From positions 124,001 to 188,000 of the forward strand of contig JADMJJ010000036.1 of assembly GCA_018780645.1 (NCBI GenBank): 64,000 bases of DNA, read 5' to 3'. This document shows positions 4,571 to 14,423 of the stretch, piece by piece. The notes under the pieces are model-generated. The model saw only the letters and a list, made by a program, of their open reading frames with translations. It made no database searches and was not told the DNA's origin. The DNA is from Burkholderiaceae bacterium. Its GTDB lineage: Bacteria > Pseudomonadota > Gammaproteobacteria > Burkholderiales > Burkholderiaceae_C. Made by a program: the position numbers and the translations under genes. Numbering within the stretch: position 1 is the first letter of the stretch; every line of letters begins with the position of its first letter.

Positions 4571-5365
4571 ATGAGTACCGTTGACCGATCAAGCCTGGTG
4601 GCGACGCTGCGCGGCGCCCTGGAAGCCCACGCGGATGTCGATGCTGCCTGGGAGGGCGGCAGTGCGGCCTTCAGCTATCGCGACGAGCTGTCCGATGTCG
4701 ATGCGGTGATAGTGGTGGCCGATGACGCTGTCGAAGCGGTGTTCGCGGCCGTCGAGGCGGCGCTCAACGCTTTGTCGCCGATTGCGCTGCGACATGACGT
4801 GACTGGCACGCCTGGCTTCACCCAGCGCTTCTACCGGCTGCGCGACGCCTCGGAGTTCCTGGTCGTCGATCTGGTGCTGATCAGGCGCAGCGATCCGCTG
4901 CTGTTCCGCGATGTCGAACTGCATGGCCGGGGCCAGACCTGGGTGGATCGCAAGGGCCTGTTGCAGCCCTCGTATCTGGATGCCGCGGCTGACCTTGAAC
5001 AGGCCCGCGCCCGCATCCCGGTGCTGCGCACGGCCTTCGACATGTTCCAGCACATCCCGACCAAGGAGCGGCTGCGTGGCCGCGCCGTCGAGGCCTTGCA
5101 GTTCTACCAGGGCATGACCTTGCGGCCCCTGGTCGAGGCGCTGCGCCTGCTGCATTGCCCGCAGCGCCGCATCTTCGGCCTGCGCTACCTGGCCCGCGAT
5201 CTGCCGGCCGAGGTGGTGGCGCGCATCGAACAGCTGATGTTCGTGGCCGATCTGCCCGATCTGGAGCGCAAGCACGAACAGGCGCAGCAATGGTTCTGGG
5301 AGACGATGGCCCGCCTGGAGCGCGATGGGCCCGGAGCGGCCGACGATGGGTCTGCCCAGAACTAG
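4571..5365 (+). CDS. nucleotidyltransferase-fold protein (264 aa)
   Basis: The N-terminal part carries a pol-beta-type nucleotidyltransferase signature: GGSAAFSYRDELSDVD (residues about 22-37), i.e. a glycine-serine loop followed by a D-x-D metal-binding pair, and a later acidic position in EFLVVDLVLI that fits the third carboxylate. The C-terminal half is helical and unassigned. The ATG at 4571 is chosen because AGGAGAAG directly precedes it; a longer in-frame reading would run back into the A2M gene. It lies between the A2M and pbpC genes with 7 nt upstream and a 20-nt overlap downstream, so the three are probably cotranscribed. Aminoglycoside-type adenylyltransferase or another small-molecule or protein nucleotidyltransferase are possible; the substrate cannot be read from the sequence. 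Confidence 0.8.
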   Translation: MSTVDRSSLVATLRGALEAHADVDAAWEGGSAAFSYRDELSDVDAVIVVADDAVEAVFAAVEAALNALSPIALRHDVTGTPGFTQRFYRLRDASEFLVVDLVLIRRSDPLLFRDVELHGRGQTWVDRKGLLQPSYLDAAADLEQARARIPVLRTAFDMFQHIPTKERLRGRAVEALQFYQGMTLRPLVEALRLLHCPQRRIFGLRYLARDLPAEVVARIEQLMFVADLPDLERKHEQAQQWFWETMARLERDGPGAADDGSAQN

Positions 5366-7736
5366 ACTGCGGCGGCTGGCCTGGCTGCTGCTGGTCATCG
5401 CGCTGGCCCTGGCGTCCCTGCGCCTGTGTCCCAAGCCGGCGCTGCGTGAGCAGGCCAGCTACTCGTCGGCTTTCTACAGCAGCGATGGCGCGCTGCTGCG
5501 CCTGACCTTGGCCCGCGATGAGCAATACCGCGTCTGGACGCCGCTTGAGCAGATCGACCCGCGTCTCATCGAGGCGGTACAGCTCTATGAAGACCGCTGG
5601 TTTGCCTGGCATCCAGGCGTCAACCCGGCCAGCCTGGTGCGTGGCGCCGTCAGCACCTGGAGTGGCGACAAGCGGCGTGGTGGTTCGACGCTGAGCATGC
5701 AGCTGGCGAGGCGCCTGTACCGCATCGACAGCCGCTCGCCGGTGGGCAAGCTCAGGCAGATAAGCGCGGCACTGTGGCTGGAGGCACGCCACGGCAAGCG
5801 CGAGATCCTGGAGGCATACCTGAACCTCGCGCCCTACGGCGGCAATATCGAGGGCGCCGGGGCGGCCAGCTTGATCTATTTTGGCAAGCGGGCGGATCAA
5901 CTGTTGCTGCCCGAGGCCCTGGCGCTGGCGGTGATCCCGCAGAACCCCAATCGCCGTGGCGGTGAGGCCTGGCCCGTCGCCCTGGGCCATGCACGCGGGC
6001 GGCTGTGGCATGCTTGGTTGAAGTGCCATCCTCAAGACCTGGCCCCGTCACAGCAGGCCAGCCTGAACCTGCCCTTGAATCTGCGCAGCGCCAAGGAGCT
6101 GCCGTTCGCTGCACCGCATGCGGTGCAGACCTTGATGCGGCAACTGCCGTCAGCGCAGACGACGCTGAGCCTGCATGGGCCGACGCAGCGCGCCGTCGAG
6201 CGCGCCATCACCCAGTTCCTCGATAGCCGTAAAGGCCAGGGCCTGAACAACGCCGCGGCCCTGTTGGTCGACACGCAGACGATGCAGGTGCGCGCCTGGG
6301 TCGGCTCGGCCAACTGGTTCGACGACAAGATTGACGGCCAGGTCAATGCCACCACGGCCAAGCGTTCGCCGGGCTCGACGCTGAAGCCATTTATCTACGC
6401 ACTGGCGCTGGACCAGGGCGTGCTGCACCCGGCCAGCATCCTGAAGGATGCGCCCACGGCCTTCGGCACCTACAGCCCGGAGAACTTCGACGGCCGCTTC
6501 GAAGGGCCCATCACCGCCGCCAACGCGCTGGTGCGCAGCCGCAACATCCCGGCCGTCCAGGTGTCGTCCAAGCTGCAGCAGCCGAACCTGTACCAGTTCC
6601 TGAAGCTGGCCGGCGTCAGCCAGCTGGCCAGCGAGCAGCACTACGGCCTGGCCCTGACCCTGGGTGGCGGCGAGCTGAGCATGGAGGAGCTGATCGGGAT
6701 GTACGCGATGCTGACGAACGACGGTGAGCTGAAGGCCTTGCGATTCACGGCTGATGCGTCGGGGCCGGCAAAGGGCCAGCAACTGCTGAGCGCAGAGGCC
6801 GCCTTCATCACCCTGGACATGCTGCGCAACAACCCGCGGCCCGACACCGGCCGGCCGGCCTTTCCCCGCGTGGCCTGGAAGACCGGCACCTCCTGGGGCT
6901 TTCGTGATGCCTGGACGGCGGGGGTGTTCGGCCGCTACGCGCTGGTCGTCTGGCTGGGCAACTTCGATGCCACCTCGAACCCAGCACTGGTCGGCGTGCA
7001 GGTCGCCGCCCCGCTGTTCTTCCAGATCGTCGACAGCCTGCGCAACCAGGGCCTGGACGCCGGCGAGGTGGCCACCAAGGCCCCGGCCAATCTGAGCCGC
7101 GTCGAGGTCTGCGCGGCCAGCGGCGACCTGCCCAACGAGCACTGCAAACAACTGGCCGAGACCTGGTTCATCCCCGGCAAGTCACCGATCAAGCTCAGCA
7201 CCCTGCACCGCGCCGTGCTGGTCGACGCCTCGGGCCGCGCCGTCTGCCGCCCCGGCGCCAACATCCGCGAAGAGGTGTTCGAGTACTGGAGCAGCGACAT
7301 GCTGCAGCTGTTCGCCCAGGCCGGCATGCCGCGGCGCGTGCCGCCGGCACCGGCGCGCTGCGGCGTGGTGGTGGCTGCCGAAGCCCAGGGTGATGGGCCG
7401 CGCATCGTTTCGCCGCTGCAGGGGGCCAGTTATGTTCTGCGGGTGAAGCAGGCGACGCCGCTTACAAGTCGTTCGCCGGGCCGCTCCCAAGAACGAGTTG
7501 GCCCCCCAGGGGGGGGGTCAGCGTACTCGCTGTATGGGGGTGCCATTCTTTTGAGAGCCAATGCCGCGCGGCAGGGGCTGGTTTATTGGTTTGCTGATGC
7601 GGCGTATCTGGGGCAGGCCGCCGCCGGGAAGGATTTGAGTTGGCAGCCGCCAGCGGCTGGGCGCTATCTGCTCAGTGCGGTGGATGCTCAGGGTGCGGCC
7701 GATACACGAGAGGTGGCGGTGGAGTTCACGAATTGA
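5346..7736 (+). CDS. pbpC: penicillin-binding protein 1C, bifunctional transglycosylase/transpeptidase
   Basis: Class A penicillin-binding protein that polymerises and cross-links peptidoglycan in the periplasm, 796 residues. An N-terminal membrane anchor (about residues 10-28) is followed by the glycosyltransferase 51 motifs EDRWFAWHPGVNP, GGSTLSMQLAR and NLAPYGGN, then the transpeptidase motifs STLK (nucleophile Ser, about residue 344), SRN and KTGTSWG, and a C-terminal BiPBP_C domain typical of PBP1C. The ATG at 5346 is preferred over 5325 because GGAG ends 9 nt upstream and the overlap with the preceding gene is smaller. The C-terminal domain is odd: residues about 705-735 (SRSPGRSQERVGPPGGG and following) interrupt the expected strand and are encoded by a C/G-tract palindromic stretch resembling an intergenic repeat inserted in frame. 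Confidence 0.95.
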   Translation: MGLPRTRLRRLAWLLLVIALALASLRLCPKPALREQASYSSAFYSSDGALLRLTLARDEQYRVWTPLEQIDPRLIEAVQLYEDRWFAWHPGVNPASLVRGAVSTWSGDKRRGGSTLSMQLARRLYRIDSRSPVGKLRQISAALWLEARHGKREILEAYLNLAPYGGNIEGAGAASLIYFGKRADQLLLPEALALAVIPQNPNRRGGEAWPVALGHARGRLWHAWLKCHPQDLAPSQQASLNLPLNLRSAKELPFAAPHAVQTLMRQLPSAQTTLSLHGPTQRAVERAITQFLDSRKGQGLNNAAALLVDTQTMQVRAWVGSANWFDDKIDGQVNATTAKRSPGSTLKPFIYALALDQGVLHPASILKDAPTAFGTYSPENFDGRFEGPITAANALVRSRNIPAVQVSSKLQQPNLYQFLKLAGVSQLASEQHYGLALTLGGGELSMEELIGMYAMLTNDGELKALRFTADASGPAKGQQLLSAEAAFITLDMLRNNPRPDTGRPAFPRVAWKTGTSWGFRDAWTAGVFGRYALVVWLGNFDATSNPALVGVQVAAPLFFQIVDSLRNQGLDAGEVATKAPANLSRVEVCAASGDLPNEHCKQLAETWFIPGKSPIKLSTLHRAVLVDASGRAVCRPGANIREEVFEYWSSDMLQLFAQAGMPRRVPPAPARCGVVVAAEAQGDGPRIVSPLQGASYVLRVKQATPLTSRSPGRSQERVGPPGGGSAYSLYGGAILLRANAARQGLVYWFADAAYLGQAAAGKDLSWQPPAAGRYLLSAVDAQGAADTREVAVEFTN
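7455..7552 (+). repeat. probable in-frame repeat insertion inside pbpC
   Basis: Between codons for YVLRVKQ and GGAILLRAN, two halves of a normal BiPBP_C domain, lies about 90-100 bases with different texture. It holds the palindromic tract CCCCCCAGGGGGG followed by several more Gs, and flanking text (CCGCTCCCAAGAACGAG, TACTCGCTGTATGGGGGTG) that resembles intergenic repeats I remember from Comamonadaceae-type genomes. The reading frame is kept through it. Exact ends are uncertain because no uninterrupted homologue can be aligned here, and no second copy was found in this window. Confidence 0.55.
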
Positions 7737-7806
7737 GGGCTCACGCTACCCGTCATCTAGCTGGACGGTTTGGTCAGTTGCGCGGGCCGCTGCTGTGATC
7801 GGCTAC

Positions 7807-7913
7807 GGGTTTGTCCCCTTGGCCTCGATGGGGCAGGCTCCGCTAAATAGCCAGTTCGGGCGCGGCGCGCCACAGTTCCACGCCGGGCGCAGCAGGCCAA
7901 AGGCTTGGTATGG
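7807..7913 (+). repeat. 107-bp imperfect direct repeat, copy A
   Basis: Aligns without gaps to 9151-9257 with 69 of 107 positions identical by eye count. The ends are nearly invariant (GGGTTTGTCC at the left, TTGGTATGG at the right) and the middle is variable. Offsets 10-14 and 22-26 can pair as a short hairpin in both copies, with one compensatory change (C-G here, T-A in copy B). It ends 40 bases before the ATG of the membrane hydrolase gene. Confidence 0.75.
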
Positions 7914-7952
7914 ACTCGAAGTGCATCAACAACACATTCGGCCATCTCACAA

Positions 7953-9110
7953 ATGTCACCGATTCACATCATCCCAGTACATGGGACCTTTGCGCGCGGC
8001 GCACTCTGGGCTTGCCCGGAGTCAGCTCTCCTGTCGTACTTAGTGAATCGACTAAGAACAGAAGGACTGGATTCAAAAGTTCACGATTTCAATTGGAGTG
8101 GTCGAAATGACGTTTCGGCACGCTATGAGGGCGCAAAGGCGCTTGCCGAACTTATTGACTCAATCGGCATAGCGACTGATGAAAAGCTATTTGTCGTTGC
8201 GCATAGTCACGGCGGCACACTACTCTCTCTGCTATTTCAACATTTCCCTACCCAAGCAGACCGTGTAACGGCAAGTGTCTGTATGGCAACCCCTTGGATT
8301 TCAGTGCGGGCCGAACCAAATATCCTTGACATTAGAGCTGGCGTATACGGATTGGCGATGCTCGGGATTCTGCCAATCTCGGTCGTCGCCGTTGCACTTG
8401 CCGTATATGCTATGTCGAACCTCAACCTAGCATACCTGTTCCTCCTATTTGGGTTTGTTCCGATAGCTTTGATGCTCATGCTCGTCTGCGTATACGTTAT
8501 TTTTCAACTCTACAGACCGAAGGGTGTACTCGAAGATATTCGCGACAGAGTAAATCGCTTTGCTAGCGAGATGGACACGGGATCAACGAAGGTGCCGCGC
8601 ATGCTCTGTATCATTCCATCGCGGGACGAGGCGTCCGCGCTTTTGAAAATGGCTGAAATTGGAGAGTTTCTATTGAAGGCAATTTTGCGGCCGCTAGTGT
8701 TCCTCGGGCTGCATCTATCCGGAAAATCGGGGCGACGTTGGACTACGGTATCAATTTTCGCCATAATTTGGATGGCAGTTGCTCTATTAATTATCAATTA
8801 CCCACCACTGCTCCTTTGGATCACCGGCGCTTCCTTCGCCGTTTTGTTGCTTATGATTGTTTCGCTTATTGTGTCAGGCATAGTGTTTGGAGCAACGAGC
8901 GCCGCTGCAAGACTCTATTGTCGATTCTCGGTAGACCCAACGCCGCTAGGGTGGCACGAGATTCTGATGATTCGATCTGAGGCAAGTATGCTCAATCACA
9001 GTGCAATCTATGAATATCCTTCTGTCCACGAAGCGATCTTCCAGCACTTTGCTGGTGCTTCCGGCGAACCCGGGGTCAAGTCTAAAAGTTTGAACCCCCT
9101 CCCCCGATGA
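7953..9110 (+). CDS. membrane-associated alpha/beta hydrolase, lipase-like (385 aa)
   Basis: Residues 4-11 (IHIIPVHG) give the first strand and oxyanion-region HG of an alpha/beta hydrolase, and AHSHGG at residues 83-88 is a nucleophile elbow with Ser85. An acidic and a histidine partner cannot be fixed, although HSAIYEYPSVHE near the end looks like the histidine loop. Unusually, two hydrophobic segments (about residues 130-205) and two more (about 280-335) are embedded between the catalytic halves, so the protein should be anchored in the membrane with its active site facing the cytoplasm. The ATG at 7953 is the first that begins with the catalytic core. Base composition is near 50% G+C, far below its neighbours, which suggests acquisition. 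The substrate is unknown; a phospholipase-like effector is one option. Confidence 0.75.
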   Translation: MSPIHIIPVHGTFARGALWACPESALLSYLVNRLRTEGLDSKVHDFNWSGRNDVSARYEGAKALAELIDSIGIATDEKLFVVAHSHGGTLLSLLFQHFPTQADRVTASVCMATPWISVRAEPNILDIRAGVYGLAMLGILPISVVAVALAVYAMSNLNLAYLFLLFGFVPIALMLMLVCVYVIFQLYRPKGVLEDIRDRVNRFASEMDTGSTKVPRMLCIIPSRDEASALLKMAEIGEFLLKAILRPLVFLGLHLSGKSGRRWTTVSIFAIIWMAVALLIINYPPLLLWITGASFAVLLLMIVSLIVSGIVFGATSAAARLYCRFSVDPTPLGWHEILMIRSEASMLNHSAIYEYPSVHEAIFQHFAGASGEPGVKSKSLNPLPR

Positions 9111-9150
9111 CTCGCCGCCGTCGAGCCTGTCGCTCGGCCCGCGCGATCGC

Positions 9151-9257
9151 GGGTTTGTCCTCATGGCCGCAATGAGCCCGGCTGCGCCCAATAGTCAGTA
9201 CGGCGCAGCGCTCTGGTTGTTTCGTCCCGAGCGTGGCCAGCCAAGGTGTTGGTATGG
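9151..9257 (+). repeat. 107-bp imperfect direct repeat, copy B
   Basis: Partner of copy A at 7807-7913, same length and orientation. It contains the hairpin CTCAT...ATGAG at offsets 10-26 and a perfect 8-bp inverted repeat GCTGCGCC/GGCGCAGC at offsets 31-38 and 52-59; copy A conserves only the first of these. It ends 46 bases before the ATG of the RelA/SpoT-domain gene, nearly the same distance as copy A from its gene. Integron attC sites were considered, but the core consensus was not found. Confidence 0.75.
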
Positions 9258-9302
9258 GCTCCCCTCGCGGCAACAGTACATTTGCCCTCAAAGAAAGACT
9301 TC

Positions 9303-10373
9303 ATGGCGTTCGTCGAACCTCAGTACACAAAAGGGCAGGTGAATCGGGCCGGTCAGATCTTGGTGGACCCAGAGGCGTATTCGCTTCAAGAGCGTCTTTG
9401 GGCGGACGTTGTGTTGGCCAATTGGCGGGCTTGCCACGGCTATCCGATCAATACGTTCCAGGCTCTGCTAAGGCTGAGACTCAAAGCGATCGACAAGAAC
9501 GCGATCGTCGCGCAGCGCATGAAGCGTGCACCCTCAATCATTCTGAAGTTGCAGCGTTTCGACGGCATGAATTTGGCACGGATGCAAGACATCGGAGGCC
9601 TCCGTGCTGTAGTCAGCTCCGTGGCACGGGTGAGGAAGCTGGAGGCCGAATATAGAAACAGCCAGTTCAAGCACGTACTTGTCTCGTCGAAAGACTACAT
9701 TGCGGAGCCGAAGCCAGATGGCTATCGCGGAATCCACCTCATCTATCGGTACTTGAATCCCAGAGCGCCAGCATACGAAGGACTGTCGCTCGAGCTTCAA
9801 GTGAGAACTCGCTTGCAACACGCGTGGGCAACGGCAGTCGAGACCATGGGGACCTTCCTAGGGCAGGCACTGAAATCCGGCCAGGGGGAGCAAGAGTGGC
9901 GAGGTTTCTTCGCGAAAGCCAGTGCAGCGCTCGCAGTCGTCGAGAAGTCACCTGCGGTCCCGGGATTCGAGGAGTGCTCGCCCGCAGAAGTCTTCGCGCA
10001 AGTTGCGGATGCGGAGCGTTCGCTCCACGTCTTGGACAAGCTCAACGGCTTTGCGATTGCAGCAGACCAAATTACCACTGAGCGTGGTCAAGGTGCATAC
10101 CATTTGGTTGTTCTGGATTCCGAGAAGCGGACGGTTCAAATACGCCCGTATCCAATCGCGCGCCTTGAGCAGGCGAATATTGACTACGCCGAAATCGAGA
10201 AGCGGACGAAGGCAGGCGATCCTATCGAAGCCGTACTTGTATCAGCGGGCCCAGTCGACGCGCTTCGGAAGGCTTATCCAAACTACTTCCTCGATACGCA
10301 AGCGTTTGTGGCGCAGATTACAAAAGTTATTGCTGACGTTCCACCGGGTGCTCAAGGCGCCCGTTCTAGTTGA
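9303..10373 (+). CDS. stand-alone RelA/SpoT synthetase-domain protein (356 aa)
   Basis: The middle of the protein matches the (p)ppGpp-synthetase fold: RMKRAPSIILKLQRF (72-86) as the nucleotide-binding basic helix, DIGGLR (96-101), DYIAEPKPDGYRGIHLIY (131-148) and LELQVRTRLQHAWATAVE (163-180), whose Glu164 occupies the catalytic position of the E-x-Q-x-R-T motif. There is no hydrolase (HD) domain and no TGS/ACT regulatory region, so it is not the housekeeping RelA or SpoT. A C-terminal extension of about 170 residues is not recognised. Relatives include small alarmone synthetases and toxSAS toxins such as CapRel, which act in phage defence. The ATG at 9303 is preferred over a GTG 57 bases upstream because a purine-rich AAAGAAAG precedes it. 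Lower G+C than the host suggests transfer along with the upstream hydrolase gene. Confidence 0.85.
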   Translation: MAFVEPQYTKGQVNRAGQILVDPEAYSLQERLWADVVLANWRACHGYPINTFQALLRLRLKAIDKNAIVAQRMKRAPSIILKLQRFDGMNLARMQDIGGLRAVVSSVARVRKLEAEYRNSQFKHVLVSSKDYIAEPKPDGYRGIHLIYRYLNPRAPAYEGLSLELQVRTRLQHAWATAVETMGTFLGQALKSGQGEQEWRGFFAKASAALAVVEKSPAVPGFEECSPAEVFAQVADAERSLHVLDKLNGFAIAADQITTERGQGAYHLVVLDSEKRTVQIRPYPIARLEQANIDYAEIEKRTKAGDPIEAVLVSAGPVDALRKAYPNYFLDTQAFVAQITKVIADVPPGAQGARSS

Positions 10374-10458
10374 TTGATTTGCAGTGATTTTTTCAGCGCC
10401 TTTCGGGCGATTTGCCGCCTTGTAGACGTTGTCCACCACCGAAGCTCACCTACTCCCC

Positions 10459-10983
10459 ATGGACTTTGCCCACCGAGACGCCGTACCCTCGGACCTCCCC
10501 CGCATCGTCGAGATCTACAACTTCGCCGTGGCCACGCGAAAGTGCAGTTGCGATCTTGATCCGACGACGGTTGAGGCGCGTCGGCAGTCGTACGACGGGC
10601 ACACGCCGAACCACAGGCCTTTGTGGGTGGCCGAAGACAGCAGCAAGCCGGGCCAGGGCGCGATCGGGTATCTGGGTTTCTTCCACTTCATGAACGAGCG
10701 GCCCGGCTACTTCATCACCGCCGACTTGGCGATCTACCTGCACCCGGACTATCAGCACAGGGGCGTGGGTTCGTATCTACTGACCCAGGCCATTCAGTTC
10801 GCCCCGGCGCTGGGCATCGAGACGCTGACCGCCACCATCTTTGCCTCGAACCAGGACAGCATTCGGCTGTTCGAGAAGTTCGGCTTCGAGCGCTGGGGCT
10901 TCATGCCGCGCGTGGCTCGTTTGGAGGGGGTGGAGAAGGATCTTGTTCTGGTTGGCCGCCGACTGTTTGGAGTCACGGACTGA
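10459..10983 (+). CDS. GNAT N-acetyltransferase, MnaT/phosphinothricin-acetyltransferase type
   Basis: 174 residues. The opening AVPSDLPRIVEIYNFAV and the acetyl-CoA loop YQHRGVGSYLL (about residues 94-104) are typical of the YncA/MnaT and Pat/bar branch of the GNAT superfamily, which acetylates the amino group of methionine analogues, other amino acids or phosphinothricin. The C-terminal strand SNQDSIRLFEKFGFERWG completes the fold. The ATG at 10459 is chosen; an in-frame TTG at 10429 would add ten residues with no better upstream signal. The composition returns to the chromosome average here, so the low-GC island ends before this gene. Confidence 0.85.
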   Translation: MDFAHRDAVPSDLPRIVEIYNFAVATRKCSCDLDPTTVEARRQSYDGHTPNHRPLWVAEDSSKPGQGAIGYLGFFHFMNERPGYFITADLAIYLHPDYQHRGVGSYLLTQAIQFAPALGIETLTATIFASNQDSIRLFEKFGFERWGFMPRVARLEGVEKDLVLVGRRLFGVTD

Positions 10984-11117
10984 CTGACGAGCGGAGCCCG
11001 CCGCGAGCGGACCGGCTTCGATCTAACCCGTTGTGCTTGCAGTAGTGGGATTCAGAACGTTTCAGCCGCGATTCAGCTGTTTTCAGGACGGATGATTCTT
11101 TCAGGTAAGACATTAGA

Positions 11118-11141
11118 GCCACGGCGATTTGGCGTCGTGGC
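11118..11141 (+). other. hairpin upstream of the 75-residue orphan
   Basis: GCCACGGCG and CGTCGTGGC form a 9-bp stem with one G-T pair and a six-base loop, followed by CTTTCC. It could be a weak terminator of the GNAT gene or a leader structure for the small gene starting 65 bases downstream; nothing in the sequence decides between these. Confidence 0.35.
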
Positions 11142-11205
11142 CTTTCCGGCCGAAGTTCGACGAGTCCGTGCCCATCGGCAGTCATTCAACCAGGGAGTAA
11201 GCATC

Positions 11206-11433
11206 ATGTCTTGGAGCATCAGCAGTGCCATCTATGGAGGCACAAACGGCAGCAACGATTCCGTAGCGGTGAGCGTGGTTGACGCCCTGTATGCGACGAT
11301 GGGCGGAGACCCCGACCCCGGCGTCGCGAAAGCGTTCGCGGCCGTCCTCTCGGAGACCTCGGGCGTGGGCCCTGACATGCTTTTTGCCTGCCAGGAGAAC
11401 CGGTCGATCCAGTTTCCTCAGGGCATTGTCTAG
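11206..11433 (+). CDS. small protein of unknown function (75 aa)
   Basis: MSWSISSAIYGGTNGS begins 8 bases after a clear AGGGAG ribosome site, which is the main support for the gene. The protein has no membrane segment and no recognised motif; it is glycine- and serine-rich at the start and then helical (SVVDALYATMGG). It stands alone between the GNAT gene and the convergent GST gene. I do not recognise a family. Confidence 0.5.
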   Translation: MSWSISSAIYGGTNGSNDSVAVSVVDALYATMGGDPDPGVAKAFAAVLSETSGVGPDMLFACQENRSIQFPQGIV

Positions 11434-11469
11434 GGCCGGGCCGGGCCGGGCTGGGGTTCAGGTCTCGGT

Positions 11470-12081
11470 CTAAACCCCCTCGTTCTGCATCGCCGGCCGG
11501 GCCTGGACCCGGCCCAGCCATTGCTGCACATGGGCGTGGGCGGCCACCGGCGCGCCGATGTAGACGCTGTAGCCGATCACCGAGCCGACCAGCAGATCCG
11601 CCAGCGAGTAGGTGTCGCCCAGCATCCAGGGCTGGCGCGCCAGCCGGGTGTCGAGCAGGGCCAGCAGCTCATTCAGCTCGGCACCGGCCGCGTCGGCATG
11701 GGCGCTGCTGCGCAGCGCCTCATCACCGAGGGTCGCGCGGTGCAGACGCGTCAGCACCGCACCATAGCTGACATAGGCCCAGGCACACCAGGACAGGGCC
11801 TGCAGCCGCTCGGGCGTGCCGGCCGCCGGCCACAGCCCGCGCTCGACCCCATAGGTCTCGCCCAGCCACAGCTGGATGGCCAGCGCTTCGAACATCGGCG
11901 CGCCGTCCACCGTCAAGGTCGGTACCTTGCCATTCGGGTTCAGGGCCAGATAGTCCGGGCGATGCTGCTCGCCGGCCCGGATGTCGATCTTGACCCGCTC
12001 ATGTGGCAGGTCCAGCTCGGCCAGCGCGCAGGCGACGGGGGTGGCGCTGGACATCGGGTACCAGTACAGAACGACGGACAT
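11470..12081 (-). CDS. glutathione S-transferase family protein (203 aa)
   Basis: The N-terminal thioredoxin-like domain carries YWYPMSSATPVACALAELDL, with a serine in the usual glutathione-activating region, and NPNGKVPTL, whose cis-proline loop binds glutathione. EALAIQLWLGETYG gives the E-[SA] contact. The all-helical C-terminal domain has the conserved LGDTYSLADLLVGSVI N-capping region. The ATG at 12081 follows GGAGAGAAAACC; a longer reading would run into the divergent regulator's leader. It is divergently arranged with the YafY-type regulator over 115 bases, so regulation by that protein is plausible. Confidence 0.9.
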   Translation of the reverse strand: MSVVLYWYPMSSATPVACALAELDLPHERVKIDIRAGEQHRPDYLALNPNGKVPTLTVDGAPMFEALAIQLWLGETYGVERGLWPAAGTPERLQALSWCAWAYVSYGAVLTRLHRATLGDEALRSSAHADAAGAELNELLALLDTRLARQPWMLGDTYSLADLLVGSVIGYSVYIGAPVAAHAHVQQWLGRVQARPAMQNEGV

Positions 12082-13804: not shown

Positions 13805-14176
13805 ATGCCTGTTGTCGCCCTTGATCACGTCCAACTCGCAATGCCTGGAGGGGCCGAGCCGCAGGCGCGAAACTTCTACGGCAGCCTATTGGGCCTCACC
13901 GAGCTGGCCAAGCCAGAGGCACTTGCCGCCCGCGGTGGTGCCTGGTTTCAATGCGGCAGCATTCAAGTGCATCTTGGGGTCGAGAGTGGCTTTCGCCCGG
14001 CCATGAAAGCGCATCCCGCTTTTCTCGTCGAGCAGTTCGAGGAACTGCTGGCTCGTCTTCAGCGTGAAGGGTTCGAGATTACCGAAGACACATCGCTTCC
14101 GGCCGTCCGAAGGGCTTTCACCAATGATCCCTTTGGCAACCGCATTGAACTGGTCGCATCCGATGCCGCTGCCTAG
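13805..14176 (+). CDS. VOC-family protein 2
   Basis: 123 residues. ALDHVQLAMPGG places the first ligand histidine near residue 7, QVHLGVE and KAHPAFLV supply the central strand, and PFGNRIELVAS supplies the terminal glutamate. It is not closely similar to the flanking VOC genes, so the three-gene cluster mixes subfamilies. An AAAGGGGGT purine run about 6 bases upstream serves as ribosome site. No substrate can be inferred; it looks like the glyoxalase/bleomycin-resistance branch. Confidence 0.88.
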   Translation: MPVVALDHVQLAMPGGAEPQARNFYGSLLGLTELAKPEALAARGGAWFQCGSIQVHLGVESGFRPAMKAHPAFLVEQFEELLARLQREGFEITEDTSLPAVRRAFTNDPFGNRIELVASDAAA

Positions 14177-14423
14177 TTCTTCAATCGCGAGGATGCCGCC
14201 CCTCATCTCAAACGCTGTCCGGGCCGCTCTCCCTTGCTGAGACTCTTCGGGCGCGGGCCATGACTGGCTCTTCCGGTGTCAGCAGTCGTCGGCTCGCTTG
14301 CGACTGGCGGCGGTTGCGAGGGTCAGCCCCTGGGCCGTGGTCGACCGGAATCAGGACCGGGGGCGGACCGCATCAGCAACAATGGCATCTGCCCCGCGCG
14401 GGCCTACCCATTCAGGAGCATTG

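Follow-up and report, generated by a model that had tools for sequence, protein, structure and literature searches.

A noncoding element of about 136 bases precedes unrelated single genes at a variable chromosomal locus in a genus of Burkholderiaceae

The variable segment and its genes

Behind a penicillin-binding-protein gene lies a variable chromosomal segment with two low-GC genes, each preceded by one copy of an imperfect repeat, referred to here as the element. The window, meaning the whole 64,000-nt stretch of DNA that was analysed (GC 66.8%), comes from the genome designated G000 (here, the own genome), which was compared with a sister species (G174) and a third species (G062); these three genomes constitute our sample of the genus. 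Copies of the element are named A and B in the own genome, and C and D in the sister species. The features of the locus are as follows.

5325–7736, plus strand: left neighbour, bifunctional penicillin-binding protein gene (Pfam Transgly, Transpeptidase and BiPBP_C; orthologues in the sister and third species)
7741–11016, strand not applicable: variable segment, with 9 bases in its place in the third species
7800–7935, plus strand: element copy A, full extent (7807–7913 in the initial annotation), from alignment with B and C; noncoding by the codon-position test
7924–7942, plus strand: attI-like core at the 3′ end of A (CATCAACAACACATTCGGC), the predicted and likely exchange point; 0.17% of random 22-mers match the attI core of the sister species as well, post hoc
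7953–9110, plus strand: gene 1, coding for 385 aa with hydrophobic segments and a weak likeness to alpha/beta hydrolases (Abhydrolase_6, E 0.0014, short of the Pfam cut-off)
9144–9279, plus strand: element copy B, full extent (9151–9257 in the initial annotation), from alignment with A and C
9267–9282, plus strand: stretch of B lining up weakly with the attI core (32% of random 22-mers as good)
9303–10373, plus strand: gene 2, 356 aa, RelA/SpoT-domain protein, phage-defence candidate PDC-S33 (PF04607, E 8.6e-17; PADLOC PDC-S33, E 1.7e-122)
10459–10983, plus strand: right neighbour, GNAT acetyltransferase gene (PF00583), next to the island in the own genome and the sister species

The GC content of gene 1 is 50.2% and that of gene 2 is 56.4%, against 66.8% for the window. 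Gene 1 has eight database relatives, itself included, among 7,997 scored, and gene 2 has 5,133 among 7,999 scored. In the sister and third species no counterpart of gene 2 was found, apart from RelA/SpoT proteins of housekeeping size. The left neighbour, which we take to be PBP1C-like, contains a 75-base in-frame stretch (7473–7547) that is rich in inverted G and C runs and presumably REP-like; it is unmatched in the orthologues of the other two species, and its core occurs once in the window. The GNAT gene is absent from the site in the third species, and beside copy C in the sister species it is split into two reading frames (L046, 2200–2640). As far as the glyoxalase-type genes, the three species differ from one another over the entire region.

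Over the 107 bp first annotated as an ungapped repeat (7807–7913 and 9151–9257), A and B are identical at 69 positions, well above the best 107-base ungapped matches of 47–53 in 60 dinucleotide shuffles of 7741–10480, confirming the repeat. In the alignment with C the likeness of A and B continues beyond these ends, to about 7935 and 9279, and each element therefore comprises about 136 bases. Counted from the ends of the 107-base repeats, the spacing to the gene is 39 bases (ATG at 7953) and 45 bases (ATG at 9303). The 107-base stretches have a GC content of 67.3% (A) and 62.6% (B). Only A and B stand out in a search of the own genome, with E values of 1e-68 and 1e-6; 39 further matches are at 0.016 or above. 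A supposed inverted fragment of the element at 10974–11002 was discarded as being at chance level (E 11).

Copies in the sister species and an empty site

Copy C, at 1.14 Mb in the sister species, has the same ends as A and B and a centre 27 bases shorter. It starts 12 bases after the stop codon of the penicillin-binding-protein orthologue (identified with Pfam), placing it at the orthologous site, and the gene downstream of it encodes a 156-aa protein without a family, unrelated to genes 1 and 2. At 4.72 Mb is copy D, a 5′-half copy preceding a gene fragment of 56 residues whose SnoaL-like match stays below threshold (E 0.0089). This copy is weaker than C (profile E 5.5e-5 over 853 kb, BLAST E 6e-4, and covariance-model E 0.1 in the sister genome, with an unconvincing 3′ half), and the stretch holding it was not found in the own genome or the third species. 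In the third species the penicillin-binding-protein gene is followed by 9 bases and then by the sequence to the right of the GNAT gene, with neither island nor element. Taken together, the contexts of A, B, C and D therefore give four copies before four different genes, with three of the copies at one spot.

Pairwise identity is 62% for A and B, 71% for A and C, and 74% for B and C, and the likeness stops shortly upstream of each gene. Orthologous noncoding pieces of the own and sister genomes are 80% and 86% identical (49 and 86 bases; two of the four pieces tried could be aligned). As the identities of A and B with C fall below these values, the copies look as if they had arrived separately. 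The recurrence of the element at an orthologous site before a non-orthologous gene, with the third species empty, supports the initial description of the arrangement as cassette-like; that proposal also survives the comparison with other genomes, the element being present in a second genome, upstream of a different gene.

Coding potential and fold of the element

Changes between A and B are distributed evenly over the codon positions (12/14/12). A small-protein reading was considered, because the three full copies have an open frame in common, with similar residues, and 27 bases are deleted from C; it was rejected on the even codon-position changes, and no protein homologues of the open frame were found. 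At E 0.1, a translated search of the element matched weakly in 99 of the 299 family genomes, and at the 16 such loci of other genomes that were inspected the element was absent. The interval 7000–11500 contains no tRNA or tmRNA. Rfam, searched up to E 5, places no family on the element, its one weak match lying off it.

RNAalifold yields a four-way fold of 27 pairs, on which 89.4% of cells pair over the four copies. Four pairs differ at both partners, a number equalled in 15 of 500 shuffles, and 5 of 500 attain the covariation score. In energy the consensus fold is better than 499 of 500 column shuffles for the gene strand, and than 419 of 500 for the opposite strand. Relative to the free fold, enforcing the consensus pairs costs 20.9 kcal/mol in A, 12.7 in B and 1.4 in C, and the gene strand of each copy, folded singly as RNA, has a z-score of -0.50 (A), -0.50 (B) or 0.34 (C). 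The hairpin that was first annotated at offsets 10–14/22–26 is present, and where A has C-G, B has T-A. Over the four copies, however, it pairs in 80% of cells, no better than shuffled sequence, with 411 of 500 shuffles scoring as high; a helix at columns 22–25/33–36 of the alignment (A5) fares better, being equalled by 28 of 500 shuffles. The selection on folded RNA or single-stranded DNA that was proposed from this hairpin is no more than suggested, and for a different fold, which among the full copies only C nearly prefers.

The chief rival to the interpretation given below is that the element is a structured RNA leader controlling each gene, having arrived with the gene or been reused at the spot, with no role in movement. 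Compensatory changes in the four-way fold and its energy on the gene strand point this way, as does the placement of the three full copies, each shortly before a start codon on the same strand. The folding cost in each full copy, the weak single-sequence z-scores and the lack of an Rfam family up to E 5 argue against it, and so do three features of the setting: no promoter-like site was found in front of A or B, the 12 bases between C and the preceding stop codon leave little room for a promoter, and the downstream genes have no common function. A leader is a genuine possibility, though on balance a somewhat unlikely one as a full account; it could also hold alongside a capture role.

Distribution of the element

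A covariance model of A, B and C was run, with stricter filters, on 399 genomes of the family and on a 399-genome sample of the order. Matches at E ≤0.5 occur in 28 of the 399 family genomes; strong ones (E <1e-28) are confined to the own genome and the sister species, the next having an E value of 1.3e-4. At a threshold of E 0.01 the order sample gave a match in one of its 399 genomes, and this was the own genome. In these searches the element is found only in this genus. Of the matches outside the genus (E 1.3e-4 and weaker), those inspected as alignments (L185–L189 and L191) and as sequences (L185–L189) were judged to be chance. Two genomes of another genus (g95; L189, 1501–1536, and L202) have stretches resembling the start of C at 29 of 36 and 28 of 36 bases, located 167 bases upstream of a gene that is presumably ribosomal-protein-S15-like. 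These were left out of the count because an unrelated Sinorhizobium stretch also matches at 28 of 36 bases, and chance may account for them.

A degenerate pattern of the 5′ half had no matches in genome_contigs and one in viral_contigs, the latter lying within a coding stretch and judged to be chance. As genome_contigs may omit near relatives (the sister species did not appear), the pattern scan is uninformative on the genus. The element is absent from all 31 loci of RelA/SpoT relatives and from the integron loci examined (best 11.4 bits, E 0.63). Twelve other genomes raised with A as query and two other genera raised with B were dismissed, none reaching E <0.5 with the A/B/C profile, as were plasmid records with short matches (3 and 11), of which the one inspected looks coding. 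No phage record matched the element, and neither the island nor the peptide had a match among plasmids. A literature search by title and abstract start, with thin coverage of subscription journals, returned no description of the element. The initial suggestion of an undescribed mobile unit goes beyond these results: no movement was observed, and spread beyond the genus is not established.

In another explanation the element would be either intergenic sequence resident in the genus or one of its inert repeats, beside which foreign DNA landed repeatedly at a tolerated spot, the second copy being due to local duplication. Such an origin would suit the presence of three of the four copies at one locus, the host-like GC of the element next to low-GC genes, and the differences among the three species in the region up to the glyoxalase-type genes. 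It is harder to reconcile with copy C, which at the orthologous place is only 71% (A) and 74% (B) identical and 27 bases shorter, with copy D at another locus, and with the new gene right behind each copy, which chance leaves unexplained. We consider it unlikely.

Integrons of the genus

Integron integrases above the curated cut-off are present in all three genomes of the genus and in none of 14 control genomes. Matches to attC number 73 in the sister species, 21 in the third species and 5 in the own genome, some sites being counted on both strands. The integrases are located on other contigs or 1 Mb away from the element; the initial remark that no integrase was seen is correct for the stretch read but not for the genome, which has an integron integrase on another contig. 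In the sister species a very large cassette array stands beside the integrase (contig C1, 2183001–2224000; L221, L259 and L264), and more attC sites lie far off, at about 0.59, 1.43 and 4.06 Mb. The cassette arrays examined contain no relatives of the island genes, the gene of C, the fragment of D, the GNAT gene or the neighbours.

An attC model was built from 12 sites of the sister and third species, on which true sites score 40–116 bits. With default filters it found none of A, B, C and D, and with filters off it gave 4.3 bits over B and nothing over A. The element does not carry the pair of attC end motifs, GTTRRRY at the 3′ end with RYYYAAC at the 5′ end: exact GTTRRRY is missing at the junctions of A, B and C, the 5′ motif having been examined by eye. 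Nor does the genus model detect an attC behind gene 1 or gene 2. Judged with this model, built on sites from the genus itself, the element is not an integron attC, which bears out the annotated lack of a standard attC core. Directly behind a glyoxalase-type gene ending at 14176 is a possible attC relic (14171–14221, CCCCTCATCTCAAACGCT; 14.8 bits, E 0.07), and the likeness between the own genome and the third species breaks inside it.

Very improbable is a history of decayed ordinary integron cassettes with the element as a worn attC. Integrons are abundant in the genus, the relic at 14171–14221 may be attC-like, and there is a likeness between the first part of the element and an arm of attC, which 2 of 200 shuffles equal in the best of 24 comparisons; but the model gives at most 4.3 bits over B, nothing over A and, with default filters, nothing over C and D, the ends of A, B and C have no exact GTTRRRY, and the element stands before the genes, not after them.

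The RelA/SpoT family is found as a true cassette at 1 of its 31 loci, as judged with the genus-trained attC model, which may miss other attC types. On this Silanimonas metagenome contig (L097, 1402–2525) a RelA/SpoT gene 69% identical to gene 2 is followed by an attC (2452–2525, 39.9 bits) that starts at the base after the matched gene; from its sequence, the locus appears to hold a phage-defence candidate as an integron cassette.

A possible attI-like 3′ end

The junction sequences are CAACAACACATTCGGC for A and CAACAATAGGCT for C, and the attI of the sister species reads CAACACGTTAGGCT. Cores of 22 bases were compared with 38-base junction windows alongside 20,000 random 22-mers, the windows having been chosen after the match was seen. 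With the attI core of the sister species, and in these post hoc windows, the proportion of random 22-mers as good is 0.17% for A, 32% for B, 0.78% for C and 0.145% for the sum. Summed over A, B and C, the corresponding values are 7.4% for the attI core of the own genome, 56% for that of the third species and 7.4% for an attC core.

With whole elements, the comparison of C with the attI of the sister species stands at 16 of 2,920 background windows, as the best of 18 comparisons, and in a set of 24 comparisons with shuffles it is reached by 0 of 300. Within the same set, A against the integrase end of the third species is reached by 2 of 300, C against a region of the own genome by 4 of 300, and B against the opposite strand of the sister species' attI by 7 of 300, so that GC-rich matches evidently arise easily. 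A profile of the element found nothing better than E 2 in the cassette arrays and attI regions. Both A and B have ATT in place of the invariant GTT. In copy D the likeness ends some 6 bases short of GTTAGAT, which fits GTTRRRY, a motif with a frequency of 0.0009 per base.

A possible capture site for single genes

We tentatively favour a capture function for the element: it would be an attI-like site, and an integron integrase working in trans is predicted to have placed unrelated genes behind it, one to each copy. The noncoding element of about 136 bases, directly upstream of each island gene, would be the capture site, and its 3′ end would be the point of exchange at which IntI, supplied in trans, placed single genes behind it. 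The sites may have decayed since insertion, with ATT for GTT in A and B and no attC behind the genes, and the folded element might have an additional role as an RNA leader. In favour of capture are the different genes behind the copies and the empty site, the identities of A and B with C, which are lower than those of orthologous noncoding pieces, the integrases and attC sites of the genus, the post hoc resemblance of the 3′ ends of A and C to the attI core of the sister species, the GTTRRRY motif past the break in D, and the RelA/SpoT cassette on L097. Counting against it are the poor match of B, the weaker figures for the other two attI cores, the choice of windows after the match was seen, the ease with which GC-rich matches arise, the result of the profile search in arrays and attI regions, the missing G of GTT, the lack of an attC behind genes 1 and 2, the absence of the element from the 31 RelA/SpoT loci, and the small sample of three genomes. 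The base composition also speaks against capture, the GC of the element being host-like and that of the genes not.

Doubtful, in our estimation, is the broader proposal of a new class of cassette with its site ahead of the gene. In such a cassette an element that folds, varies in length and ends in an attI-like core would be served in trans by the integrase of the resident superintegron, and single accessory genes, a phage-defence candidate among them, would collect at a hot spot of the chromosome.

Should the element prove to be a capture site, integrases of integrons would be adding genes singly to parts of the chromosome remote from their arrays, and with no attC left behind, surveys that rely on attC would overlook these gains. 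Should it prove to be a leader, one RNA would be common to unrelated acquired genes.

Comparison with known systems

Cassette insertion at genomic attG sites has reportedly been described by Loot et al. 2024. The present locus is similar in having cassettes in the chromosome away from an array; it differs in that an attG event would leave an attC behind the gene, and none was found here.

MITE-like repeats such as ERIC are about 100–150 bases long, with conserved ends and a length-variable centre, properties shared with the element. Unlike these, the element has at most two copies per genome and no obvious terminal inverted repeat, and each copy precedes a gene or gene fragment. Common to the locus and to the cassette arrays and CALINs of the genus are single, unrelated low-GC genes on the same strand and imperfect repeats of about 100 bases with a variable centre, but the repeat here is not attC and stands before the genes.

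For class 1 and 2 integrons, PMC12901181 describes attI-ORF-attI and delta-attI cassettes, in which an ORF is bounded by attI or partial attI rather than attC; IntI1 excises and inserts such cassettes of clinical integrons. By comparison, the likeness here is limited to the core and was found post hoc, the G of GTT is lost, no integrase is adjacent, and the 136-base body is unlike the attI of the genus. Among described arrangements, attI-ORF-attI and delta-attI cassettes come nearest to the one at this locus.
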